This document shows positions 2,182-45,508 of a stretch of 46,342 nucleotides of DNA, in pieces. The DNA is taken from the NCBI GenBank assembly GCA_003130845.1, contig QEXW01000083.1, positions 1 through 46,342 on the forward strand. Direction: 5' to 3'. The stretch is from Anaerolineae bacterium (lineage in GTDB: Bacteria; Chloroflexota; Anaerolineae; Anaerolineales; Villigracilaceae). The translations under genes and the position numbers were made by a program. Position 1 is the first letter of the stretch. Each line of letters opens with the position of its first letter. The notes under the pieces are model-generated. The model did not search any database. It was not told the DNA's origin and saw only the letters and a program-made list of their open reading frames with translations.

Positions 2182-2868
2182 ATGAAACCTCTAAAATTTA
2201 GCATCCTCGAAGGTCCCTTCACCATCCACCGCATCAAACCCGGCGCTGTGCTACCCAAAGGCCTCACCTCCAGCCCGTTCTACAGCATTAGCGGTTCTGC
2301 TGAAGAACTTTCCATCGTCGCACCAGAACGCATCGCCATCGAAAGCGAACAATCCGAACCTGGCTGGAGCGCGCTCAAAGTCCTCGGCCCACTCCCCTTC
2401 GACGAAGTCGGCCTCCTGGCAGGCATTTCTACCATCTTAGCCACTGCCGATATCCCCATATTTGCTGTCTCCACCTTCGAAACCGACTACATCCTCATCA
2501 AGCGTGAACATCTCAAAGCAGCAAAAACCGCTCTTACCGCAGCCGGGCACAAGATTGCACGCCCCCAAAAAGTAGATGAAAAAGCCACCACCCCCCTCAA
2601 CGCCGCATCCTACGCTCTGCTGCTGGAAAAACAAATACCGCTCATCAAAAACCTGCTGATTGAAAAAATTGGCCCGGCGGCGCTTGCCACCCTACGCAGC
2701 GAAGCCGCCCTAGCCGCTGCGGTTGGCGGCCTATATGAATTTCTACCCACCGCCATCCGGCTCGTCATCAACCGTGATGCCTTTGTCAACTACTGCGTGC
2801 GCAACCTAGACCGCATCTTACCCGAAATCCCCATCCCGGCCAAACAACCTGCCCGAAAATCTCGATGA
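2182..2868 (+). CDS. ACT_7-family amino-acid-binding protein with extra C-terminal domain
   Basis: This 228-residue protein begins with a roughly 130-residue region like the ACT_7/COG3603 family. It shows the W-x-ALKVLGPLPFDEVGLL stretch followed by IPIFAVSTFETDYILIK, the usual pair of ACT-like motifs. ACT domains bind small ligands such as amino acids and act allosterically; no ligand is known for this family. Residues about 140-228 form a helical C-terminal extension that is not part of the usual short ACT_7 protein and that I do not recognise. ATG 2182 is preferred over GTG 2167 because it has the Shine-Dalgarno. Its stop overlaps the next start by 4 nt (ATGA), so it is coupled to the glycosyltransferase gene. 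Confidence 0.75.
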   Translation: MKPLKFSILEGPFTIHRIKPGAVLPKGLTSSPFYSISGSAEELSIVAPERIAIESEQSEPGWSALKVLGPLPFDEVGLLAGISTILATADIPIFAVSTFETDYILIKREHLKAAKTALTAAGHKIARPQKVDEKATTPLNAASYALLLEKQIPLIKNLLIEKIGPAALATLRSEAALAAAVGGLYEFLPTAIRLVINRDAFVNYCVRNLDRILPEIPIPAKQPARKSR

Positions 2869-5234
2869 CCTACACCGCCCTCTTTGCACTCTGGACCATC
2901 CAGGGCAGTCTCGCGTTCCTCTGGCTCCTGCTCTTACCCAGCGACGCCGGTCGCTTTTCTTTCGGACGATGGATGCTGCTAGGCACCGCCCTAACCCTCA
3001 GCGGATTGTCCGCCCTAGCCTGGCACCGTGCCCGCACCAAAACCTTCCCCCCTCCTCTTGCTCCCCTTACTCATGACATTCTCTACCTGTTTGCGCTAAG
3101 CGCCGCTCTCTCGGCCCCCCTCCTCATACTCACCCTACACACCTTAGGGCAAACCAGCTACACCTACACCGCCTATGCCTCCCGCCTGACCCCCCTGGCA
3201 ACATGGTTCACCCTAGCCGGACTAGAATGGCTCTCTCTGCACCACCGTAAGCGAACCTTATCGGTGACCCCCTCCCAAATTCATTCCTTTCTTATCATCC
3301 TCTCCATCCTAGCCCTGCTCGCCTTGCTGATTCTAACCACCCGCTGGGGGCTAACTCCCACACGAGATGGCTCCTTCGGCCATCCAGCCACCCCTTTCCT
3401 AGAATGGCAAATCCTTCTGGCGCTGACGATTGCCCTCATCGCCACACTCCTCCTGCCGCGTCTCTCAACACACCGCCTCGACCGAATTGCCTTTCCCCTC
3501 GTATACCTATTTACCTGCCTCGTATGGCTCACAGACCCGCTCATCCCGGGCTTCTTCGCCACCCCGCCACGCGCCCCTAACTTTGAACCCTACCCATTTT
3601 CCGATGCCCTCATTTACGCCCAATATGCCCAACAAGCCCTAATCGGCGAGGGGCTGCTCTGGCCAGACATACCCACCCGGCCATTTTACGTCTCCCTGCT
3701 GGTTTGGCAGCACGCCTTAGCCGGACAAAACTACTACCATGTCATCACACTCCAAACGCTCTGGCTAGCCTTCTTTCCGGCCTGTTTATACCTACTTGGC
3801 AAAGAACTCGGCTCACGACCGCTTGGTTTCATGCTAGCTATCCTAGCCACCCTGCGCGACCTAACCGCCAATCATGCCGCACCATTTGCCCTCAACTACA
3901 CCTACTCCAAACTTTACTTCTCAGAAATTCCCACAGCACTATTTCTGACTCTCTTTACCATCCTAGCCATCCGTTGGATAAAATCTCCCCGTCCCGTCTG
4001 GTACACCTTACTTACGGGCGGCATCCTGGGCATAGCAACGCTCATTCGCCTACAAAGCAGCATCTTACTTGTCCCCGTGGGGCTAATCAGCCTAATTTCC
4101 CTCGGGAAAACGCGCCGAACCGACTGGTTACGCGGCCTGGCCTGCATAACAATTGGCCTCTTCCTTACTCTCACCCCCTGGCTCATCCGCAACTTCCTTG
4201 CCGCTGGCGGTCTAGTACTAGATAACCCCATCTCACAATCTATGGTCCTTGCCCGACGCTGGAGTGGCAGCAGCGGCAACGAAAGCATCCCTCGTCTGCC
4301 AGGAGAAAGCACTGCGCAATATGTCAATCGGCTAAACCAGATGGCACTCCAACATCTCAAACAAAACCCCCAGCGCATTCTTCGCAGTGCCGCCAATCAC
4401 TTTTTCAACAATCTCATCAGTAGTTTGCACACCTTCCCCGTCCGTGACCGTCTAACCCAACCAAACGACTTAATCTGGCCAACCCATGCCTTCTGGCAAA
4501 GCGGATTTCGCTCCATACCGTTGACGGCCATTTTCTTATTACTCTTTGCCATAGGCTTAACAGCCGCTTGGCATCGCCTTCGATACATCGGGCTACTCCC
4601 AGTTGCGCTAAGCTTGTCCTACCACGCCTGGACGGCACTTTTTCTTAGTTCTGGTGACCGTTTCCTAGTACCGATTGACTGGAGCACCTACCTCTACCAA
4701 GCATGGGGCTTACTACTTCTTGGACAAACCGCACTCTCTGGACTTTACAATGCCTCAGCCGCTTGGCAATCTAACCAACTACATCAACCCGAAATCCGTA
4801 AGCAAGACAACCTGCCAAATTTGGCATTAACCTTATTCACCATTGTCGGCATCCTGCTCATTGGTGCATCACTGCCCTTAACAGAACTTCTCTTCCCCAA
4901 AAAATACTCTCATAGCATAGCCTGTCCATTCACCCTGCGCCCTAACGAACTCTGTCTGCAAGGTCGTGCCATCTACCCGCGCTACTACCCAGCCGGTGAC
5001 GGCGAACCGGGAACAGCCAAACTGGGTTATGAAATAAGTAACAACGCCCGCCTGGTCTTCTGGCTAGCTGGCCCACAGCCTGGGCTGGTCATTTTGCCGC
5101 TCGAAACCCCTCCTCCTTCCTTCCCACATACCGCCGACGTGTGGGTTGTTGGCGAAAAACAGGGTGAGGCACTGCAAGCAAGAGTTATTCAGGTCGAAAA
5201 AGACGGAAAGGTACAGGTATTTTCTACTCCATAA
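2865..5234 (+). CDS. GT-C fold membrane glycosyltransferase (ArnT/PMT-like)
   Basis: A 789-residue integral membrane protein with about a dozen or more hydrophobic helices. A large loop carries the acidic SDALIYAQYAQQ motif near residue 245, as in GT39/GT83-type enzymes that use polyprenyl-phosphate sugars as donors, and an IRLQSS arginine segment after helix LLTGGILGIATL. A soluble region with LPGESTAQYVNRLNQMALQHL follows, and there is a beta-rich C-terminal tail after the last helix. The likely role is transfer of a sugar to lipid, protein or glycan on the outer face of the membrane; donor and acceptor are unknown. The polyprenol-phosphate glycosyltransferase at 10463 could supply donors (inference). 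It overlaps the ACT gene by 4 nt and is followed at once by the 5238-5500 repeat array. Confidence 0.7.
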   Translation: MTYTALFALWTIQGSLAFLWLLLLPSDAGRFSFGRWMLLGTALTLSGLSALAWHRARTKTFPPPLAPLTHDILYLFALSAALSAPLLILTLHTLGQTSYTYTAYASRLTPLATWFTLAGLEWLSLHHRKRTLSVTPSQIHSFLIILSILALLALLILTTRWGLTPTRDGSFGHPATPFLEWQILLALTIALIATLLLPRLSTHRLDRIAFPLVYLFTCLVWLTDPLIPGFFATPPRAPNFEPYPFSDALIYAQYAQQALIGEGLLWPDIPTRPFYVSLLVWQHALAGQNYYHVITLQTLWLAFFPACLYLLGKELGSRPLGFMLAILATLRDLTANHAAPFALNYTYSKLYFSEIPTALFLTLFTILAIRWIKSPRPVWYTLLTGGILGIATLIRLQSSILLVPVGLISLISLGKTRRTDWLRGLACITIGLFLTLTPWLIRNFLAAGGLVLDNPISQSMVLARRWSGSSGNESIPRLPGESTAQYVNRLNQMALQHLKQNPQRILRSAANHFFNNLISSLHTFPVRDRLTQPNDLIWPTHAFWQSGFRSIPLTAIFLLLFAIGLTAAWHRLRYIGLLPVALSLSYHAWTALFLSSGDRFLVPIDWSTYLYQAWGLLLLGQTALSGLYNASAAWQSNQLHQPEIRKQDNLPNLALTLFTIVGILLIGASLPLTELLFPKKYSHSIACPFTLRPNELCLQGRAIYPRYYPAGDGEPGTAKLGYEISNNARLVFWLAGPQPGLVILPLETPPPSFPHTADVWVVGEKQGEALQARVIQVEKDGKVQVFSTP

Positions 5235-5237
5235 ATC

Positions 5238-5500
5238 ATCCGTTGCCCATCCGCTGCCCCATCCGCTTATCTGCTTCCCCATCCGTTGCCTCATCCGCTT
5301 ATCCGCTTCCTCATCCGTTACCTCATCCGTTGCCTCATCCGCTTATCCGCTTCCTCATCCGTTGCCTCATCCGTTGCCCCATCCGCTTATCCGCTCCCCC
5401 ATCCGTTGCCCCATCCGTTGCCTCATCCGTTGCCCCATCCGCTTATCCGCTCCCCCATCCGTTGCCCCATCCGCTTATCCGCTTCCCCATCCGTTGCCTC
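5238..5500 (+). repeat. Intergenic array of 12-nt and 20-nt repeat units (18 units)
   Basis: The whole gap between the glycosyltransferase stop and the EamA start is one array. Unit A is atccgttgccYc (12 nt, 12 copies, the first 11 nt long); unit B is atccgcttatccgctYccYc (20 nt, 6 copies). The order is A A B A B A A B A A B A A A B A B A. Every unit starts with ATCCGYT, and B is an 8-nt piece plus an A-like 12-mer. The plus strand is pyrimidine-rich and has little self-complementarity. The same units occur, with an added 13-nt form, inside the gene at 42275. Three overlapping open frames cross the array only because the units lack stop codons. Confidence 0.95.
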
Positions 5501-5512
5501 ATCTACTAACCT

Positions 5513-6370
5513 ATGAGAATCAAAGCCGACTTAACCCTCTTTGCCGTTGCCATCATCTGGGGAACGGCCTTCATCGCCCAAGACATTGCTGGGCAATACC
5601 GGCTGGCCTACCTATTCAACGCCATCAGCTTTCTACTTGGCGCGCTAGCACTTCTTCCGTTCGTGCCGCGCGGTCAACCAATCACCAGAGAACAATGGAA
5701 ATGGATGATAATCGCTGGCCTTGTCCTATTCATAGCAGCCGCCCTACAACAAATTGGCATATTCTACACACAAGTTGCCAATGCAGGCTTCCTGACCAGC
5801 CTATACACCGTCTTCACCCCCTTTCTGCTATGGATATTCTTCCGTGAAAAACCGCATCGGCTCGACATAGTGGCCGTGATAGCAGCAATCAGTGGTGCGT
5901 GGCTCCTTTCCACGGGAGGCCAAGGATTAAAACTTCAACAAGGCGATGGATTAATTTTTATCGGTGCGCTCTTTTGGGCTGCGCACTTCGTCATACTGGG
6001 AAAATTTGCCGCGCGCTACGAACCCATCTCATTTTCGATTGGGCAATTTCTGGTCTGCGGCCTACTCAACCTAACCACCGGCCTACTGACCGAACCCCTC
6101 ACTGCACTCACCGCCCTCCCCCTACTTGGTGCGATTGCCTATCGAGGACTGATGTCAGTTGGAATTGGCTACACCCTACAAGTTTGGGGACAAAACCACA
6201 CCCCTCCTACCGACGCCGCGCTCATCCTGAGCATGGAATCGGTCTTTGCAGCCCTAGCTGGCTGGCTAATCTTGAGTCAACACCTCACCGCATTACAAAT
6301 CACTGGCTGTGCAATCATCTTCGTAGCCGTCATGCTCACACAACTAAAGACCACACCCACACACCGCTAG
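5513..6370 (+). CDS. EamA/DMT-superfamily transporter
   Basis: A 285-residue protein with ten predicted transmembrane helices in two EamA repeats (about 1-135 and 145-280). The first helix has the typical AIIWGTAFIAQD start, and the second repeat has the ALILSMESVFAALAGWLIL signature near the end. Members export or import metabolites such as amino acids and nucleosides by proton exchange; the substrate cannot be predicted. The ATG lies 12 nt after the repeat array and has no clear Shine-Dalgarno, so expression may depend on read-through from the upstream operon. The next gene starts 4 nt after its stop. Confidence 0.88.
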   Translation: MRIKADLTLFAVAIIWGTAFIAQDIAGQYRLAYLFNAISFLLGALALLPFVPRGQPITREQWKWMIIAGLVLFIAAALQQIGIFYTQVANAGFLTSLYTVFTPFLLWIFFREKPHRLDIVAVIAAISGAWLLSTGGQGLKLQQGDGLIFIGALFWAAHFVILGKFAARYEPISFSIGQFLVCGLLNLTTGLLTEPLTALTALPLLGAIAYRGLMSVGIGYTLQVWGQNHTPPTDAALILSMESVFAALAGWLILSQHLTALQITGCAIIFVAVMLTQLKTTPTHR

Positions 6371-6374
6371 AAAC

Positions 6375-7241
6375 ATGAAAGCACCGCCAGTCACCGACCT
6401 AATCCGCCGCCGCTTTTCCTGTCGGCACTACGCGGGCTACCCCATTGCAGCAGAAAAACAACAAGCACTACAAACCGCACTCACGCACCTACCACCAGCA
6501 CCCTTTGGCAACCAACCCCGCTTCTGCCTCATCACCGCTGACGAAAACGACAACACCGCCCTGCGCGGACTAGGGACCTACGGATTCATTCGTGGCGCCA
6601 CCGGCTTCATCATAGGCGCCAGCCAAACAGCGCCCAACCACCTAGAAGACTTCGGCTACCTGATGGAATGGCTCATCCTGCGCGCCACATCGCTCAACCT
6701 AGGTACCTGCTGGTTAGGCGGCACCTTCACCAAGAGCAAATTTGCGCAAAAAATTGGCCTATACAGCTACGAAACCATCCCTGCCGTGACCGCCGTAGGT
6801 GAATTTTTCACTCCACAACAAGCCAGGCAAGGATGGATTAGCGCCTTAGCGGGGTCCCGTCACCGTTTACCTTGGCACTTGCTGTTCTTCGAACGCGACT
6901 TTGACCACCCTCTTGACGAAAAGCAGGCTGGCAAATACGCCATTCCCCTCGAAATGGTGCGCCTAGCGCCCTCGGCCTCCAACAAACAGCCCTGGCGAGT
7001 CATCAAAGACCGCAACCACTGGCATTTCTACCTGCAGCACACCCCCGGCTACCGCGCCGACCCACTCAAAATTCTACTTGGCCTATGCGACCTACAACGC
7101 CTGGACATGGGCATTGCCCTGTGCCACTTTGAATTAACCGCCCGAGAAAGCGGCCTCTCTGGCAGCTGGATAATCATTCCAGAACGCCAATCGCCTCCTG
7201 GTGCACAAACACGTTACACCGCCACGTGGAGAATCGAATAG
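6375..7241 (+). CDS. Nitroreductase-family flavoprotein (TM nitroreductase type)
   Basis: A 288-residue protein of the putative TM-nitroreductase family, the fused two-half form that binds FMN. The N-terminal half has DLIRRRFSCRHY and the GNQPRF loop; the middle has NLGTCWLGGTFTKSKF; the C-terminal half has MVRLAPSASNKQPWR and LQRLDMGIALCHFEL, where conserved Ser/Asn/Lys/Gln residues contact FMN. Such enzymes use NAD(P)H to reduce nitro groups, quinones or enones; the physiological substrate is unknown. It is embedded in the plus-strand run with gaps of 4 and 9 nt. Confidence 0.85.
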   Translation: MKAPPVTDLIRRRFSCRHYAGYPIAAEKQQALQTALTHLPPAPFGNQPRFCLITADENDNTALRGLGTYGFIRGATGFIIGASQTAPNHLEDFGYLMEWLILRATSLNLGTCWLGGTFTKSKFAQKIGLYSYETIPAVTAVGEFFTPQQARQGWISALAGSRHRLPWHLLFFERDFDHPLDEKQAGKYAIPLEMVRLAPSASNKQPWRVIKDRNHWHFYLQHTPGYRADPLKILLGLCDLQRLDMGIALCHFELTARESGLSGSWIIIPERQSPPGAQTRYTATWRIE

Positions 7242-7250
7242 AATAAAAGC

Positions 7251-8453
7251 ATGAAACACATCGCCTGGCTAGCGCTCACCTTACTACTTCTCTCCTGCGA
7301 TTCACAAGCGCAAGCCCCGTCTACCAGCTTCTTAATAGATGGCACGACAGCATACACACTGGAAACAAATTCTAGCACCCCGGCCGCACTGGCTGCTCGC
7401 ATCGGCCTTTCGCTATCCCCTGCCGACCGATTCATCCTCAATGGCAAACTCATCCCAGCAGACCTACCCCTGCCCGGCGGCTTGTCCTACACCCTACAAA
7501 TCCTGCGTGCCGTCAACGTGACCTTACGCACGCCAGAGGGCGAAACCACCTTTCCAAGCGCCGCGCTCACCCTCGGACAAGCACTCACCGAACGCGGATT
7601 AACCCTCAGCACAGCAGATTTTCTTTCCCCATCCCCCGAAACCCCTCTCACCACCGACCTAACCGTCATATATCGTCCAGCAAGAAACTATACCATACGT
7701 GTGGATGGTCAAATCATATCAATCAAATCCTCCGCCACAACAGTGGGGCAAATCCTCGCCTCTGCCGGAACTCCGCTGCTCGGACTAGATTACAGCCTCC
7801 CCCCAGAATCGGCACCTGCCCCTGCCGACGGAATCATCGAAATCGTTCGCGTACAAGAAACACTGACCATCATATCCACCCCCATCCCCTTCAACACCCG
7901 TTACCAAGACACAGCCGACCTACCTCTCGGCTCAGAAAACCTGCTTCAAGCAGGTGAAACCGGATTAAAAATCACCACCCTTCGTATTCGATACGAAAAC
8001 GGCAGCGAAGTCTCACGCCTGCTCGAAAAAGAACAAATTGTACGACAACCCAAAGAACAAATCGTAGGGCGCGGCACGCAAATTACCCTCCAAACCCTAC
8101 AAATCCCTGGAGGCCAAATCCAATATTGGCGCGCAGTACAAATGTATGCCACCTCCTACTCCCCTTGCCGCTCTGGCGGCTCACAATGCTCCTACGGCAC
8201 AGCCAGTGGCTTACCCGTCCAGCGCGGCGTCGTTGCCATGACTCGTGACCTATTCAATGCCCTGCGCGGCACACAAGTCTACGTGCCAGGATACGGCATT
8301 GCCACCATTGGTGACGTGGGTGGCGGCTTCCCCGATGGCCGACTGTGGATTGACCTAGCCTACAGTGATGCAGATTGGCAAAATTGGAGCGGCTGGGTCA
8401 CGGTATACTTCCTCGCCCCTGCTCCAGCCTATATCCCTGAACGACTCAGATAA
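7251..8453 (+). CDS. DUF348-G5-3D domain lipoprotein (YabE/RpfB-like cell-wall protein)
   Basis: A 400-residue exported protein. Residues 1-16 form a signal peptide ending in the lipobox LLSC (Cys16), so it is probably anchored as a lipoprotein. Two DUF348-like repeats (about 88-130 and 146-190, each with LGQAL or VGQIL) are followed by a G5 domain (about 203-281, with EVSRLLEKEQIVRQPKEQIV) and a C-terminal 3D domain (about 297-388). The three aspartates that name the 3D domain are visible in IGDVGGGF (Asp355) and in PDGRLWIDLAYSD (Asp362/368/373). The layout is that of YabE and of RpfB without its lysozyme-like domain; 3D domains are lytic-transglycosylase folds that act on peptidoglycan. 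It stands 2 nt upstream of the LCP gene, consistent with a cell-wall role. Confidence 0.85.
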   Translation: MKHIAWLALTLLLLSCDSQAQAPSTSFLIDGTTAYTLETNSSTPAALAARIGLSLSPADRFILNGKLIPADLPLPGGLSYTLQILRAVNVTLRTPEGETTFPSAALTLGQALTERGLTLSTADFLSPSPETPLTTDLTVIYRPARNYTIRVDGQIISIKSSATTVGQILASAGTPLLGLDYSLPPESAPAPADGIIEIVRVQETLTIISTPIPFNTRYQDTADLPLGSENLLQAGETGLKITTLRIRYENGSEVSRLLEKEQIVRQPKEQIVGRGTQITLQTLQIPGGQIQYWRAVQMYATSYSPCRSGGSQCSYGTASGLPVQRGVVAMTRDLFNALRGTQVYVPGYGIATIGDVGGGFPDGRLWIDLAYSDADWQNWSGWVTVYFLAPAPAYIPERLR

Positions 8454-33930: not shown

Positions 33931-33979
33931 CACAAATCCCAAAGCCAAAATCGCAAATCCAAAATCAAAAATCAAAAAT
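33931..33979. repeat. Heptanucleotide tandem repeat (7 units) between plsC-like gene and enolase
   Basis: Seven consecutive 7-mers: CACAAAT, CCCAAAG, CCAAAAT, CGCAAAT, CCAAAAT, CAAAAAT, CAAAAAT. It lies just upstream of the acyltransferase start and next to the -10 box of enolase. The consensus CNAAAAT is also seen in the E2 linker at 31584-31611. Confidence 0.88.
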
Positions 33980-33984
33980 CGGAT

Positions 33985-36902: not shown

Positions 36903-38168
36903 ATGAAAAAGTCATTCCTGGCGATAATCAGCCTCCTGCTGATTGCCTCCTTCGTCCTAGCGGCCTGTGGCGGCGGCGCAGCCCCCACCACTGCCCCTGA
37001 GCAGCCCACTGCTGCTGCCGAACAGCCCACTGCTGCTGCCGAACAGCCCACTGCCGCCCCTGAGCAGCCCACTGCCGCCCCGGCGGAAAAAATCACCGTC
37101 ACCTTCTGGCACGCCTACGGCACCGGCTCTGCCGAAGAAGTTGCCCTCCAGAAGATTCTGGAACAGGCCAAGACCGACCTGCCCCAGTACGACATCCAGG
37201 TTCTGCAAGTTCCGTTCAATGACATCTTCAACAAGTACCGCACCGACGTTGCTGCTGGCGGCGGTCCCGATATGTTCATCGCCCCCAACGACTCGCTGGG
37301 TGACGATGCCCGCGCTGGCCTGATTGCCGACATCACCGACCTGGCCAAAGACAAACTAGGCGCCTATACCCCGCTCTCTGTGGAAGGCATGAGTGTCGAA
37401 GGCAAACTGTACGGCATTCCCGAATCCCTCAAAGCAGTAGCCTTCTGGTACAACAAGGACATGCTCAAGGAAGCCCCCAAGACCACCGATGAACTCAAAG
37501 CGCTCATGGAAGGCGGCACGCCCATCGCCATCTCCTACGGCTGCTACCACCACTGGGGCTTCTTCGGCGCCTTCGGCGGCCAAATCTTTGACAGCAACTG
37601 GAAAGTCGTTGCTGACCAGGGTGGCGGCGTTGCCAACGCCATGGCATATCTGAACGAACTGTACCAGATTTCCAAGGCCAATGGCTGGCCCAAGAACGAC
37701 AGCGATGGTCTGGCACCCTTCTCTGAAGGCAAAGTAGCCGCCATCACCAACGGCAACTGGGCCATGGGCGATTACAAGAAAGCCCTCGGCGACAAACTGG
37801 CCGTTGCCCCCCTGCCCTCTGGCCCCGGCGGTGCTTCTAACCCCTTGCTCGGTGTTGATGGCTTCTACTTCAACCCGAACAGCGCCAACAAAGAAGCTGC
37901 TCTCGAAGTAGCCCTCTACCTGACCGGCAAGAACGCTCAGACCATCATGATGAACGAAGCTGGTCACGTTCCCGCCCGCACCGATGTCGAAATCACCGAC
38001 CCGCTCATCAAGGGCCTGGTCGAAGCCTTCAAGACCGGCTACGTCCGCCCGCAGGTTCCGCAACTCGGCCTGTACTGGTCCAACTTCTGCGGCACCGATG
38101 AAGTCTTCGAAAAAGGCACCCCCGCAGCAGATTGGGTAGCCAACGCCACGGCCAACGCCAACAAGTAA
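36903..38168 (+). CDS. Sugar ABC transporter substrate-binding lipoprotein (family 1, MalE-like)
   Basis: A 421-residue lipoprotein: signal peptide with lipobox LAAC (Cys22), then a tether of four EQPTAA heptads (about 32-59), then the SBP_bac_1 domain starting ITVTFWHAYGTGSAEEVALQKIL. Further signatures are FNKYRTDVAAGGGPDMFIAPND, LYGIPESLKAVAFWYNKDML and FSEGKVAAITNGNWAMGDYK. Such proteins deliver oligosaccharides to MalFG-type permeases; with a GH13 glucosidase downstream, alpha-glucans or malto-oligosaccharides are likely (inference). An in-frame upstream extension is rejected because AAAAGGAG precedes ATG 36903. Confidence 0.93.
   Translation: MKKSFLAIISLLLIASFVLAACGGGAAPTTAPEQPTAAAEQPTAAAEQPTAAPEQPTAAPAEKITVTFWHAYGTGSAEEVALQKILEQAKTDLPQYDIQVLQVPFNDIFNKYRTDVAAGGGPDMFIAPNDSLGDDARAGLIADITDLAKDKLGAYTPLSVEGMSVEGKLYGIPESLKAVAFWYNKDMLKEAPKTTDELKALMEGGTPIAISYGCYHHWGFFGAFGGQIFDSNWKVVADQGGGVANAMAYLNELYQISKANGWPKNDSDGLAPFSEGKVAAITNGNWAMGDYKKALGDKLAVAPLPSGPGGASNPLLGVDGFYFNPNSANKEAALEVALYLTGKNAQTIMMNEAGHVPARTDVEITDPLIKGLVEAFKTGYVRPQVPQLGLYWSNFCGTDEVFEKGTPAADWVANATANANK
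36996..37079 (+). repeat. Four 21-nt tandem repeats in the lipoprotein tether
   Basis: Four 21-nt units (36996-37016, 37017-37037, 37038-37058, 37059-37079) encode PEQPTAA, AEQPTAA, AEQPTAA, PEQPTAA. Units 1 and 4 share CCTGAGCAG and units 2 and 3 share GCCGAACAG; units 1-2 end GCTGCT and 3-4 GCCGCC, a pattern suggesting unequal exchange. Confidence 0.9.
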
Positions 38169-42175: not shown

Positions 42176-42274
42176 CAGCAACAGACTGCCCCAATCGAAA
42201 AACTTCCTTCCGCCAGCCCAAAAACGCGTAACCTCGCTGACATCAGAGTGTTTTTTTCTGCAAAGGAGGCCACC

Positions 42275-45200
42275 GTGAGCAACTACACCCCCGAGCAAAT
42301 CCAATTTATCCTGGCAGAAATCGAAAAATGGCGCAAAGATGGCCTGCTGACCGAACGCGGCGCGCAAATCCTGCGCCGCCGCTATGAAACCCTTTCCCCC
42401 GCCCCTCCCGTTATTCCCTCCACTCTAGAATCCGTTTCTCCACTTCCTCAACCCACTGAATCCGCTGCCTCATCCGCTTCCGACATCCGCTTATCTGCTT
42501 CCCCATCCGCTGCCGACATCCGCTTATCCGCTTCCCCATCAGCTTCCGACATCCGCTTATCCGCTTCCCCATCCGCTGCCTCATCCGCTGCCCCATCCGC
42601 TTCCGACATCCACTTATCCGCTTCCCCATCCGCTGCCTCATCCGCTGCCCCATCCGCTTCCGACATCCGCTTATCCGCTTCCCCATCCGCTGCCTCATCC
42701 GCTGCCCCATCCGCTTCCGACATCCGCTTATCCGCTTCCTCATCCGTTGCCCCATCCGCTGCCCCGCTCGCCTCCGTTCTCCTCTCCGAATCCAGCATCA
42801 AAATCGCGCTCTACCTGGGCGCGTTTTTCGTCATTGCCGCCGCGCTCATCCTGGCCGCCCTGGTCGAGACCCTGCGCCTGCCCATCCTGCTGGGCGTCTC
42901 CGTCTTGTTCGGGGGCGGCGCGCTGGCCTTGAAAAAACGCCTGCCACAGCCCAGTTTCATCCTGTGGTTGGTCTTTTCCGCACTCCTGCCCATCTCTGCC
43001 GGCGTCCTCGCCGACCTGCTCAACCTATCGGGAACGTCCCTGTCGGCCTACTGGCTGATTGTACTGACCCTCATGTCCGCCTTATGGGGATTCAGCACCT
43101 GGCTATACGTTTCCCGCTTCTTCTCACTGACCGCCTTTGGCGCGCTGGCCGTTGCAGCCTGGCACTTTGCGAATCTTTTTGAGCCAGGCACCGACCTATA
43201 CCTGTTCGCACTGGCCGCCGCCGGACTCTTCGGCCTGGTGGGCGTCTTCCTGCTCAAAACCTGGCAGTCGCAAAAATTTGCCCTGCCGCTCTACTGGTTG
43301 GTGCAAGCCTTCGAACTGATTGTCCTGGTGATTGCCGCGCCCTGGGCGCTTTACAACCTAGTCGCCAACTACACCGGAGCCTGGTGGCTGTTCAGTGCCT
43401 TGACCTGGGTCATCGCCTTTCTCTTTTACACCGCCAGCGACTTTCTCATCCCATTCCCGCTCTTCCGCTTCCTGGCCGCCGGCGCGCTCATGCCAATCGC
43501 ATGGCTGGCGCTAATCGAGTTTGAGCCATCGAACACCATCTTTGCCCTCGGCTGGTGGGCATGGGGCTTTGTCCTGCTCCTAGCGGGAGAAATCACCTCA
43601 ATCTTCAAATCGGACAAAGTGACACGCTTCGGACTGCCGCTCAACCTGGCCAGCTTACCGCTCTTCTTCATCGCCGGCTTAGTCGGCACAAGCGAAAACG
43701 CCTGGCTCGGCTTTGGCCTGTTCGCCGCATCCGGCCTTGTGCTCAGCCTGGCGCAAATTCGCAACGCGCGCTGGTGGGTCTGGACGGCAGCCGTCGCCTG
43801 CTGGGTGATGACCTGGTACTTCTTCTTCAACCTGCCTCCCATCCAACCGCTCGGCATCAGCAGCATCTTCATCATCTCCGGCCTGCTCATCCCGCTCTCC
43901 CTGCTCGATTGGCTGCTCCCCGGCGACATGCTATCGCGCCCGGCCTGGCGCTGGCCGCTACGCCTGTTCGCACTGCTCACCCTGGTAGCCGGCACATTCG
44001 TCTCCCTGTTCGCCTTCAGCCCCGATTTACTGCGCGCGGCCCTGGCCTTTGGATTGTTCGCCGCCCTTGGCCTGGTCTACGCCCTGCGCTTCCGACTACC
44101 GATTCTGCTGCCGTTCTTCACCGGCTACCTGCCGCTTAGCCTGCTCTACACCCTGCGGCACTTCGACCTGGACTGGTGGCTGCCCGTGCTCACCGTCCTT
44201 TCGGTTGCTTATTACCTTATTGGCTACACGCTCTCTTTGCTCGACAAACAAGGCCGCTGGGCCAACACCCTGCGCCAGTCAGGACTGGCATTAGGCTTGC
44301 TGGCCTCCCCGTTTGCCGGGTTCTACAGCGGCAGCGGCGATGGCTGGTACACAGCCGTTCTCGGCATCCTCTTTGTTATCGAGACCTTCGCACGCCTGGC
44401 CTGGCTCGAAATTGTCGTACATGGCCTCTATACGCTGGCAATAACACTCGTCCTGATTGAAAACAAAGTCGCTTCATCCAGCCTGTACCTAATGAGCATC
44501 AGCGTCATCCTGCTTGGCCTGGAGATGTTCTTCCAACACACCTTACAAGGCCGCGCAGCCCTCAAAATCTTCCCACGCCTGGCAGGCTGGCTAATGGCCC
44601 TCGCCGGGAATCTGTTCCTGTTCACCAACTGGCAATCCGCCTCCGGGCTGGAGCTCGCCGTCAGCCTAACGTACAACCTGCTTTTCCTGGCGTACGCCCT
44701 CTTATATCGCAAACCCGACCTTTCGTTCCCTTTCTACGTCTCAACCGCCGTCACCGCCCTGACACTGGTCGGCTTTGCCGGGTGGGAACAATGGACAGGC
44801 ACCCTCACCCTGCTTTCGCTGGCGTTGTACCTGCTTGGTTTCGTGGACAAACCCATCGGCTGGGGACAAAACCGCCGCTTGAGCGGCCTGCTGCTCGCCA
44901 CCGCCACCGCGCTTTCGGCCCCACTGGAAAATTCCGGGCTGTGGAGCAGCATCCCGGTTGCCATCGCCGCCACACTTTGGGCAGTAGAAGCCTTCCACCG
45001 CCGCAACGTCTGGCTGGGTTTCCCCGCCAATGGCCTGTACCTAATGGCCTATTACCTTATCCTGCTGGAACTCAACGTAAACCAGCCGCAATTTTTCTCT
45101 ATTGGGGCGGCCCTGCTCGGCCTGCTCATGCACTACCTGCTCACCCGCGCCGGCGCGAGTACCGGCGCCTTCCTGACCGGCATGGTCTCACAACTCATCC

Positions 45201-45508
45201 TGCTTGGCACGACCTATAGCCAGATGATTTCGACCAATTCGCTGGCCTACTTTGTGGCCCTGTTCTTCCAGTCTATCGTGGTCATGCTCTACGGGCTGGT
45301 CTTCCGCTCACGCAGCCTGCTCTTCACCCCCATCGTCATCGTCGTCCTGGGTGTAATGACGGTCGTCTTCAGCGTCCTGCGCGGCCTAGCCACCGTCATC
45401 ATGATTGGCTGCACCGGCATCCTGTTCATCGTCCTGGGCATCCTAGCCGTCTGGCAGCGCGAACAGCTTTCAGACCTGCGCGACCACCTGAACGAGTGGA
45501 AGGCATAA
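42275..45508 (+). CDS. DUF2157-type large polytopic membrane protein with repeat linker
   Basis: A 1077-residue protein. GTG 42275 is chosen because AAGGAGG (42263-42269) lies 5 nt before it; an in-frame GTG at 42248 has none. Residues 1-40 are the soluble DUF2157 start (YTPEQIQFILAEIEKWRKDGLLTERGAQILRRRYE). Residues about 63-165 are a Ser/Ala/Pro-rich linker encoded by the repeat array at 42460-42765. From about 170 to 1065 there are roughly 25-30 hydrophobic helices with little between them. No catalytic motif is visible and the function is unknown. It is transcribed alone and converges with the gene at 45601. Confidence 0.85.
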   Translation: MSNYTPEQIQFILAEIEKWRKDGLLTERGAQILRRRYETLSPAPPVIPSTLESVSPLPQPTESAASSASDIRLSASPSAADIRLSASPSASDIRLSASPSAASSAAPSASDIHLSASPSAASSAAPSASDIRLSASPSAASSAAPSASDIRLSASSSVAPSAAPLASVLLSESSIKIALYLGAFFVIAAALILAALVETLRLPILLGVSVLFGGGALALKKRLPQPSFILWLVFSALLPISAGVLADLLNLSGTSLSAYWLIVLTLMSALWGFSTWLYVSRFFSLTAFGALAVAAWHFANLFEPGTDLYLFALAAAGLFGLVGVFLLKTWQSQKFALPLYWLVQAFELIVLVIAAPWALYNLVANYTGAWWLFSALTWVIAFLFYTASDFLIPFPLFRFLAAGALMPIAWLALIEFEPSNTIFALGWWAWGFVLLLAGEITSIFKSDKVTRFGLPLNLASLPLFFIAGLVGTSENAWLGFGLFAASGLVLSLAQIRNARWWVWTAAVACWVMTWYFFFNLPPIQPLGISSIFIISGLLIPLSLLDWLLPGDMLSRPAWRWPLRLFALLTLVAGTFVSLFAFSPDLLRAALAFGLFAALGLVYALRFRLPILLPFFTGYLPLSLLYTLRHFDLDWWLPVLTVLSVAYYLIGYTLSLLDKQGRWANTLRQSGLALGLLASPFAGFYSGSGDGWYTAVLGILFVIETFARLAWLEIVVHGLYTLAITLVLIENKVASSSLYLMSISVILLGLEMFFQHTLQGRAALKIFPRLAGWLMALAGNLFLFTNWQSASGLELAVSLTYNLLFLAYALLYRKPDLSFPFYVSTAVTALTLVGFAGWEQWTGTLTLLSLALYLLGFVDKPIGWGQNRRLSGLLLATATALSAPLENSGLWSSIPVAIAATLWAVEAFHRRNVWLGFPANGLYLMAYYLILLELNVNQPQFFSIGAALLGLLMHYLLTRAGASTGAFLTGMVSQLILLGTTYSQMISTNSLAYFVALFFQSIVVMLYGLVFRSRSLLFTPIVIVVLGVMTVVFSVLRGLATVIMIGCTGILFIVLGILAVWQREQLSDLRDHLNEWKA
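42460..42765 (+). repeat. Coding array of 12-, 13- and 20-nt repeat units
   Basis: Twenty-one units: nine A (12 nt, atccgctgccYc), six C (13 nt, mostly atccgcttccgac) and six B (20 nt, atccgcttatccgcttcccc). Each C is followed directly by B, giving 33 nt, so the frame is always kept. A 57-nt super-unit A-A-C-B is repeated three times in 42571-42741 and encodes 19 residues ending SASDIRL. A and B are the units of the intergenic array at 5238-5500. Confidence 0.95.

Follow-up and report, generated by a model that had tools for sequence, protein, structure and literature searches.

How can one short repeat occupy both genes and the gaps between them while the genes that it enters stay open? The question is raised by a 46,342-nt stretch of DNA from an Anaerolineae bacterium of the family Villigracilaceae (contig QEXW01000083.1, positions 1 to 46,342, forward strand; the whole stretch is called the window below), which carries two tandem arrays of the heptamer ATCCGYT, one inside an open reading frame (ORF) and one between two genes. 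The window corresponds to contig 58 in a genome of 3.77 Mb and 159 contigs (completeness 100, contamination 2.63). The same family recurs at dozens of sites in this genome, and its arrays within genes mostly stay in one phase. We consider it probable that the family is a bacterial satellite, in which a short dispersed element has been amplified locally in higher-order units and selected for reading frame inside genes. The features of the window on which the argument draws are as follows.

42460 to 42765, plus strand: in-gene tandem array of 12-, 13-, and 8-nt units, a Ser/Ala/Pro-rich linker of 102 codons
42538 to 42708, plus strand: three consecutive 57-nt super-units (13+8+12+12+12), with 2, 1, and 1 pairwise base differences
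42275 to 45508, plus strand: host gene of this array, a membrane protein (longest ORF begins at 42248)
5238 to 5503, plus strand: intergenic tandem array of 8- and 12-nt units, in three phases
2865 to 5234, plus strand: upstream neighbor of the intergenic array, a 789-aa ORF without a family match
5513 to 6370, plus strand: downstream neighbor, an EamA-like transporter

Two arrays of one unit family

Both window arrays are based on ATCCGYT, in units of 8 and 12 nt and, in the gene, of 13 nt. They hold 23 and 25 exact heptamers on one strand, and the 45,733 nt of the window outside them hold 11 on both strands. The in-gene array covers 306 nt of a 1086-aa ORF; all six of its octamer units sit immediately after a 13-nt unit, and its super-units (42538-42594, 42595-42651, and 42652-42708) are consecutive. 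The intergenic array, about 266 nt long, lies between the stop of the upstream gene and the start of the EamA gene and parses into 6 octamers, 16 12-mers, one 11-mer, and zero 13-mers, with units falling in all three phases. An earlier note, made from the letters of the window, had described much of this correctly: one unit family shared by the gene and the intergenic array, a 13-nt unit ahead of each 20-nt unit in the gene (the 20-nt unit being an octamer plus 12 nt), three super-units of identical plan, and shifting phases without 13-nt units between the genes. Two of its details are corrected here. The length of 5.2 kb that it gave for the intergenic array is a position, and the label DUF2157 was not reproduced, the host protein having no match in Pfam or NCBIfam. 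Neither window array folds better than shuffled sequence (z scores of +1.7 and +1.3), and no hairpin of the repetitive extragenic palindromic (REP) type was found in them.

The window contains two further tandem repeats, one at 36984-37081 (21-nt CCCACTGCTGCCCCCGAACAG, 4.7 copies) and one at 33931-33981 (AAATCCA type, 7/14/21 nt).

The family is dispersed over one genome

A search for ATCCGYTNNCYCATCCGYT gave 212 matches in the genome and 0 with the reversed control. The fetched loci hold 54 unit clusters, or 50 once neighbors are merged, which share the heptamer and its 8-, 12-, and 13-nt spacings; because the list covers fetched loci only, with 40 of 62 candidates scored, it stands for at least 50 clusters, and further sites are possible. 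The genome-wide search that the earlier note had proposed thus recovers one repeat family inside and outside genes. Six pairs of contig-end clusters each map to a single place in the closest relative, a congener designated G009, so the fetched clusters represent at most 44 sites.

The expansion is restricted to this species. Among ten congeners, nine have no match to ATCCGYTNNCYCATCCGYT and G009 has three. Over 101 genomes, 15 had a match (2 matches for the reversed control). Of 400 genomes in the order, 18, this one included, contained a longer core that was searched with one mismatch tolerated (control 0); it had 131 matches here and 31 in the next genome, G117. Ten stretches came from a scan of named genomes, which may have omitted records near our own: they belong to eight Chloroflexota metagenome-assembled genomes (MAGs), one Bipolaricaulota MAG, and one record labeled Blastopirellula. 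Related tandem arrays at many sites, with a species-restricted expansion, are the marks of a dispersed prokaryotic satellite.

Degenerate octamers of the type NTYCRGTT (ATTCGGTT, GTCCGGTT) precede the arrays of L049, L060, L070 (4949-5139), L083, and L088; these octamers at the 5' edges may represent an earlier layer of the family. G009 has a heptamer array of its own (L100:930-1108, G009:C58; ACTGATA/ACTGACA, 25.6 copies), which indicates that the genus holds other heptamer satellites.

Arrays within genes mostly keep one phase

Coding status was assigned by a small gene finder built on a frame-specific Markov model (117 long ORFs as training), with arrays masked. Predicted genes entirely enclose 22 of the 50 clusters, 4 of these in antisense; two more (L051 and L055), which the gene finder omitted, were classed as coding from their open frames; and the remaining 26 are intergenic or at contig ends. 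L064, classed as coding, and L068, classed as non-coding, are probably two halves of one array. Each contrast was retested on clusters with both flanks, all contig-end clusters being excluded.

The earlier note had set as its own test that 13-nt units should occur only in coding arrays, and this expectation failed: 45 lie in the 28 coding unit clusters and 49 of the 94 in the 26 others. They are present in 15 of 26 non-coding or contig-end clusters, and 8 of the 12 non-coding clusters with both flanks have at least one. A 33-nt repeat (13+8+12) also occurs in tandem in another genus, in genome G338, antisense to a 598-aa open frame; the 13-nt unit is therefore better read as the native end of this repeat than as a coding device.

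Unit order and phase do separate the two classes (Table 1), so the tabulation suggested earlier is upheld for octamer balance and phase, though 13-nt units occur on both sides. In coding clusters, octamers mostly follow a step of 13, 16, or 25 nt, most units share the majority phase, and the main period is a multiple of three.

Table 1. Frame-keeping in coding and other clusters (values are coding versus others; "both flanks" compares coding with non-coding clusters)
Octamers after a 13-, 16-, or 25-nt step, 54 unit clusters: 44/51 versus 37/83 (Fisher p = 1.4e-6); both flanks, 33/40 versus 17/45 (p = 5e-5)
Units in majority phase, clusters of at least 8 units: median 0.82 versus 0.50 (p = 3e-7); both flanks, 0.80 versus 0.50 (p = 3e-4)
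All three phases used, both flanks: 2/10 versus 9/11
Main period a multiple of 3, arrays under 100 nt excluded and some periods at low identity (down to 0.52): 20/20 versus 12/22 (p = 6e-4); both flanks, 11/11 versus 5/10 (p = 0.012); identity of at least 0.85, 6/6 versus 3/8

When the order of units within an array was shuffled, mean phase-keeping in sense coding arrays fell from an observed 0.81 to 0.58, whereas in non-coding arrays it was 0.51 in both. Stop codons alone do not account for phase-keeping in sense arrays, because 43 of 50 arrays are stop-free in every sense frame; in the antisense frames, 0 of 50 are stop-free in all. In sense arrays a balanced out-of-frame excursion would thus escape stops, and the rarity of such excursions suggests in-frame amplification at every step. 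We conclude that the frame contrast holds genome-wide and that in-gene arrays mostly stay in one phase.

One DNA repeat encodes two unrelated peptides in conserved enzymes

The in-gene arrays lie within conserved enzymes, with homology on both sides. Their hosts include PurF, HisH, GlnE, rhamnulokinase, a photolyase, a DUF2298 protein, an acetyl-CoA synthetase-like protein, and a PurD-PurM fusion. The PurF segment (query residues 283-406) occupies the place of residues 270-271 of the Bacillus subtilis structure 1gph, and the HisH segment (residues 104-231) that of residues 110-116 of 4gud. The PurF array is antisense and encodes AADGEADKRML-like repeats, while the rhamnulokinase array is sense and encodes SASDIRLSASP-like repeats. 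The lack of any relation between the two peptides made from one DNA repeat speaks against the idea that the repeat spread for a peptide function. It is the DNA that spreads, and linkers and loops tolerate the peptide as a by-product.

This bears on the alternative of an ordinary low-complexity linker, in which local codon-repeat expansion was selected for a flexible Ser/Ala/Pro-rich peptide and the likeness to intergenic DNA is secondary. G009 lends it some substance: the orthologue of the window host gene (59-61% identity) has a Pro/Ser/Ala-rich linker in the corresponding position, which contains a 42-nt repeat of its own and just four heptamers, and the in-gene site L076 faces a different repeat there that also encodes Ser, Ala, and Pro. 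However, these units also fill the space between genes, the four antisense arrays within genes give another peptide, and PurF and HisH are interrupted where solved homologues have 2 and 7 residues. The antisense and intergenic copies disfavor this alternative, and we regard it as unlikely, although slightly less so than those considered below.

The PurD-PurM fusion (L062:5944-9186, G000:C37) carries an antisense array at 7215-7538 followed by a whole GxxExxY (PDDEXK_3) domain, between its halves and in frame. The PurD-PurM linker of G009 has neither array nor domain, and one other GxxExxY copy is found in the genome, at the start of contig 18.

Orthologous sites in the closest relative

Protein pieces from the flanks of 45 of the 50 clusters were searched against G009; the other five yielded no flank piece. 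At 19 within-contig sites both flanks aligned, and 13 of these are without a heptamer in G009 and 6 have 1 to 6. Of the six contig-break pairs, 2 are without and 4 have 1 or 2. In total 15 of 25 sites lack the heptamer and 10 have some, to be set beside the background of 11 per 45.7 kb of window outside the arrays; the counts exclude 12 one-sided sites, whose edges were not fixable. Some of the 10 are short seeds, and one, L065 in photolyase, is a longer array of a different plan. The place orthologous to the intergenic window array is 69 nt long with zero heptamers. At L069:4970-5236 (G000:C74) the array is intergenic, between TAA and ATG, and the same two genes overlap as ATGA in G009. In HisH, the 386-nt array (L080:5041-5426) faces an unrelated, palindrome-like insert of about 99 nt at the same point (L187, G009:C49), which indicates that some sites are hot spots that tolerate any insert.

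Hairpin relatives in other Anaerolineales

At seven loci in other genomes (L031, L034, L035, L036, L104, L106, and L156), all distinct, the same core makes up one of the two arms of a hairpin; they are among 35 entries that include the genome's own copies and strand duplicates and of which most others have no nearby opposed heptamer. Four of the hairpins were folded and gave z scores of -3.7 to -8.4, with 0 of 200 shuffles as stable. These REP-like arms contain three heptamers, and in G117 a fuller unit, which ends in GACAG, is repeated in tandem, with some copies in both orientations. Judged from these sequences, the tandem units would derive from a hairpin-arm element of which the 13-nt unit is the end, and the REP-like hairpin of other Anaerolineales is a plausible ancestor of the satellite.

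A putative virus contig (IMGVR_UViG_3300013130_000001; L113, L121, and L132) has the single-arm form, with five copies of ATCCGTTTATCCGTTTC, four of them followed by CCC and ATCCGTTGAC. A RAYT-like (REP-associated tyrosine transposase) gene of 194 aa on contig 11 (L201:1616-2200, G000:C11) is flanked by TCCCGAAGGCT/AGCCTTCGGGA and CGTCCCAAAGGTT/AACCTTTGGGACG inverted repeats, with one lone heptamer and no ATCCG arrays; since the gene carries other hairpins, spread by its product was rejected as unproven. A second Y1 match, on contig 105, lies within a 597-aa ORF with no array nearby and was also set aside.

A probable satellite filtered by reading frame

These observations fit a history in three steps. 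First, an element of about 30 nt, ATCCGYTT-ATCCGYTTCMYC-ATCCGYTG.., would have been scattered over the genome of an ancestor and would have continued to reach new sites in this lineage; in several other Anaerolineales it is one arm of a REP-like hairpin. Second, as the structure of the arrays shows, units were amplified in tandem at each site, and each locus acquired higher-order repeats of its own (33, 44, 45, 48, 57, 65 nt, and others); the mechanism was presumably unequal exchange or slippage. Third, the statistics of phase and period show that within genes only amplification units that are multiples of three survive, such that coding arrays mostly keep one phase and non-coding arrays drift. 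The earlier note's picture of one spreading repeat, growing by super-units and filtered for frame where it became coding, therefore stands, except for the confinement of 13-nt units to genes.

More tentatively, with somewhat less than even confidence, we propose that essential enzymes were entered, in both orientations, by a satellite descended from the arm of a REP-like hairpin, which lengthened PurF and HisH by over 100 in-frame residues each. Its coding arrays, set against its non-coding ones, would then show within a single genome which amplification lengths mutation proposes and which of them selection allows.

Several points weigh against a dispersed satellite kept in frame by selection. 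Two of the 10 larger internal coding clusters use all three phases. The shuffle of unit order reached p < 0.05 in only 4 of 12 single sense coding arrays, compared with 4 of 4 antisense coding and 3 of 23 non-coding arrays. The heptamer-free sites of G009 could partly be losses in that one relative. A relaxed scan of 366,805 nt, about one-tenth of the genome, showed four opposed heptamer pairs only and no multi-heptamer palindrome, and no transposase, linked RAYT included, was tied to the repeat. Finally, contig ends are close to many clusters: 23 of the 50 are no more than 60 nt from one, and a 24th no more than 120 nt.

A functional intergenic element, whether a terminator, a regulator, or a protein-binding array, could have entered genes by accident. 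Several intergenic arrays nearly span the whole gap between two genes, and the hairpin forms of relatives could act in RNA. Yet the window arrays do not fold, about half of the clusters are genic, and nine of ten congeners have no match. A known RNA family was rejected as well: in the nine sources scanned, the sole Rfam matches at the gathering threshold were to a tRNA and an FMN riboswitch of L035, with nothing on the arrays. This explanation is improbable, slightly more so than the flexible linker.

We give still less weight to phase variation, in which gain or loss of octamers or 20-nt units at contingency loci would toggle genes. Units of 8 and 20 nt would indeed shift the frame, and near-identical super-units stand in tandem, but the periods of all 20 coding arrays tested are frame-neutral and many hosts are housekeeping enzymes. 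An assembly or binning artefact, to which the many contig-end clusters and the six contig-end pairs joining at single G009 places might point, is very improbable, since at 19 within-contig sites both flanking protein pieces adjoin in G009 and the frame contrasts persist in both-flank clusters alone.

On the satellite reading that we prefer, one family at dozens of sites, about half of them genic, allows the lengths that amplification produces and those that selection permits to be compared directly within one genome. That one DNA specifies two unrelated kinds of peptide repeat in conserved enzymes is an argument that neutral or selfish DNA can be a source of new protein segments, probably disordered ones. 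Through the hairpin relatives, the origin of a bacterial satellite becomes traceable.

Comparison with known systems

A literature search limited to the terms used found no published description of an ATCCG-type repeat in Anaerolineales, nor of any repeat that combines one family shared by all sites with copies in both orientations, insertion into conserved enzymes, and a hairpin relative. The short tandemly repeated repetitive (STRR) sequences of cyanobacteria are dispersed heptamer-based tandem repeats with plain 7-nt periods; the heptamers here are instead spaced at 8, 12, and 13 nt.

In the parts of the published accounts drawn on here, four systems come close. Chloroflexus aurantiacus has a species-specific satellite family of a heptamer, (GATAGRA)n, scattered over one genome (PMC6749651). 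It resembles the present family in this dispersal and belongs to the same phylum, but sequence and unit structure differ, and the sections of that account of satellites used here do not describe a coding/non-coding contrast within one family. REP elements and bacterial interspersed mosaic elements (BIMEs) are short dispersed palindromes with GTAG or CGTC tags, sometimes within genes (PMC3733652). The relatives of the ATCCGYT repeat share the hairpin form; their arms, unlike those of REPs and BIMEs, hold three heptamers, and no linked RAYT was found.

For entry into genes, the nearest likeness is to the Rickettsia palindromic elements, which as a single family have entered a large number of unrelated metabolic genes in frame (PMC10969869, PMC3733652). 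The ATCCGYT family likewise lies in frame within unrelated metabolic genes (PurF, HisH, GlnE, rhamnulokinase, PurD-PurM, and others). The Rickettsia elements, however, are palindromic, about 150 bp long, and inserted as units, whereas the in-gene arrays here are non-palindromic, tandem, and up to several hundred nucleotides long.

For frame, the likeness is to the tandem repeats of Borgs, which are pervasive between and within ORFs and whose units are all divisible by three in ORFs and 14-38% so in intergenic DNA (Schoelmerich et al. 2023, PMC9879509). According to the same portion of that report, the products are mostly predicted to be disordered and the repeats terminate contigs (PMC9879509). 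Unit lengths divisible by three in ORFs and not elsewhere are common to both systems. Each Borg locus has its own unrelated repeat, whereas all loci here share ATCCGYT units as one imperfect family, which sits on a bacterial chromosome in both orientations and has hairpin relatives. The Borg tandem repeats and the Rickettsia palindromic elements are thus precedents, the former for divisibility by three within ORFs and the latter for in-frame entry of one family into unrelated metabolic genes.
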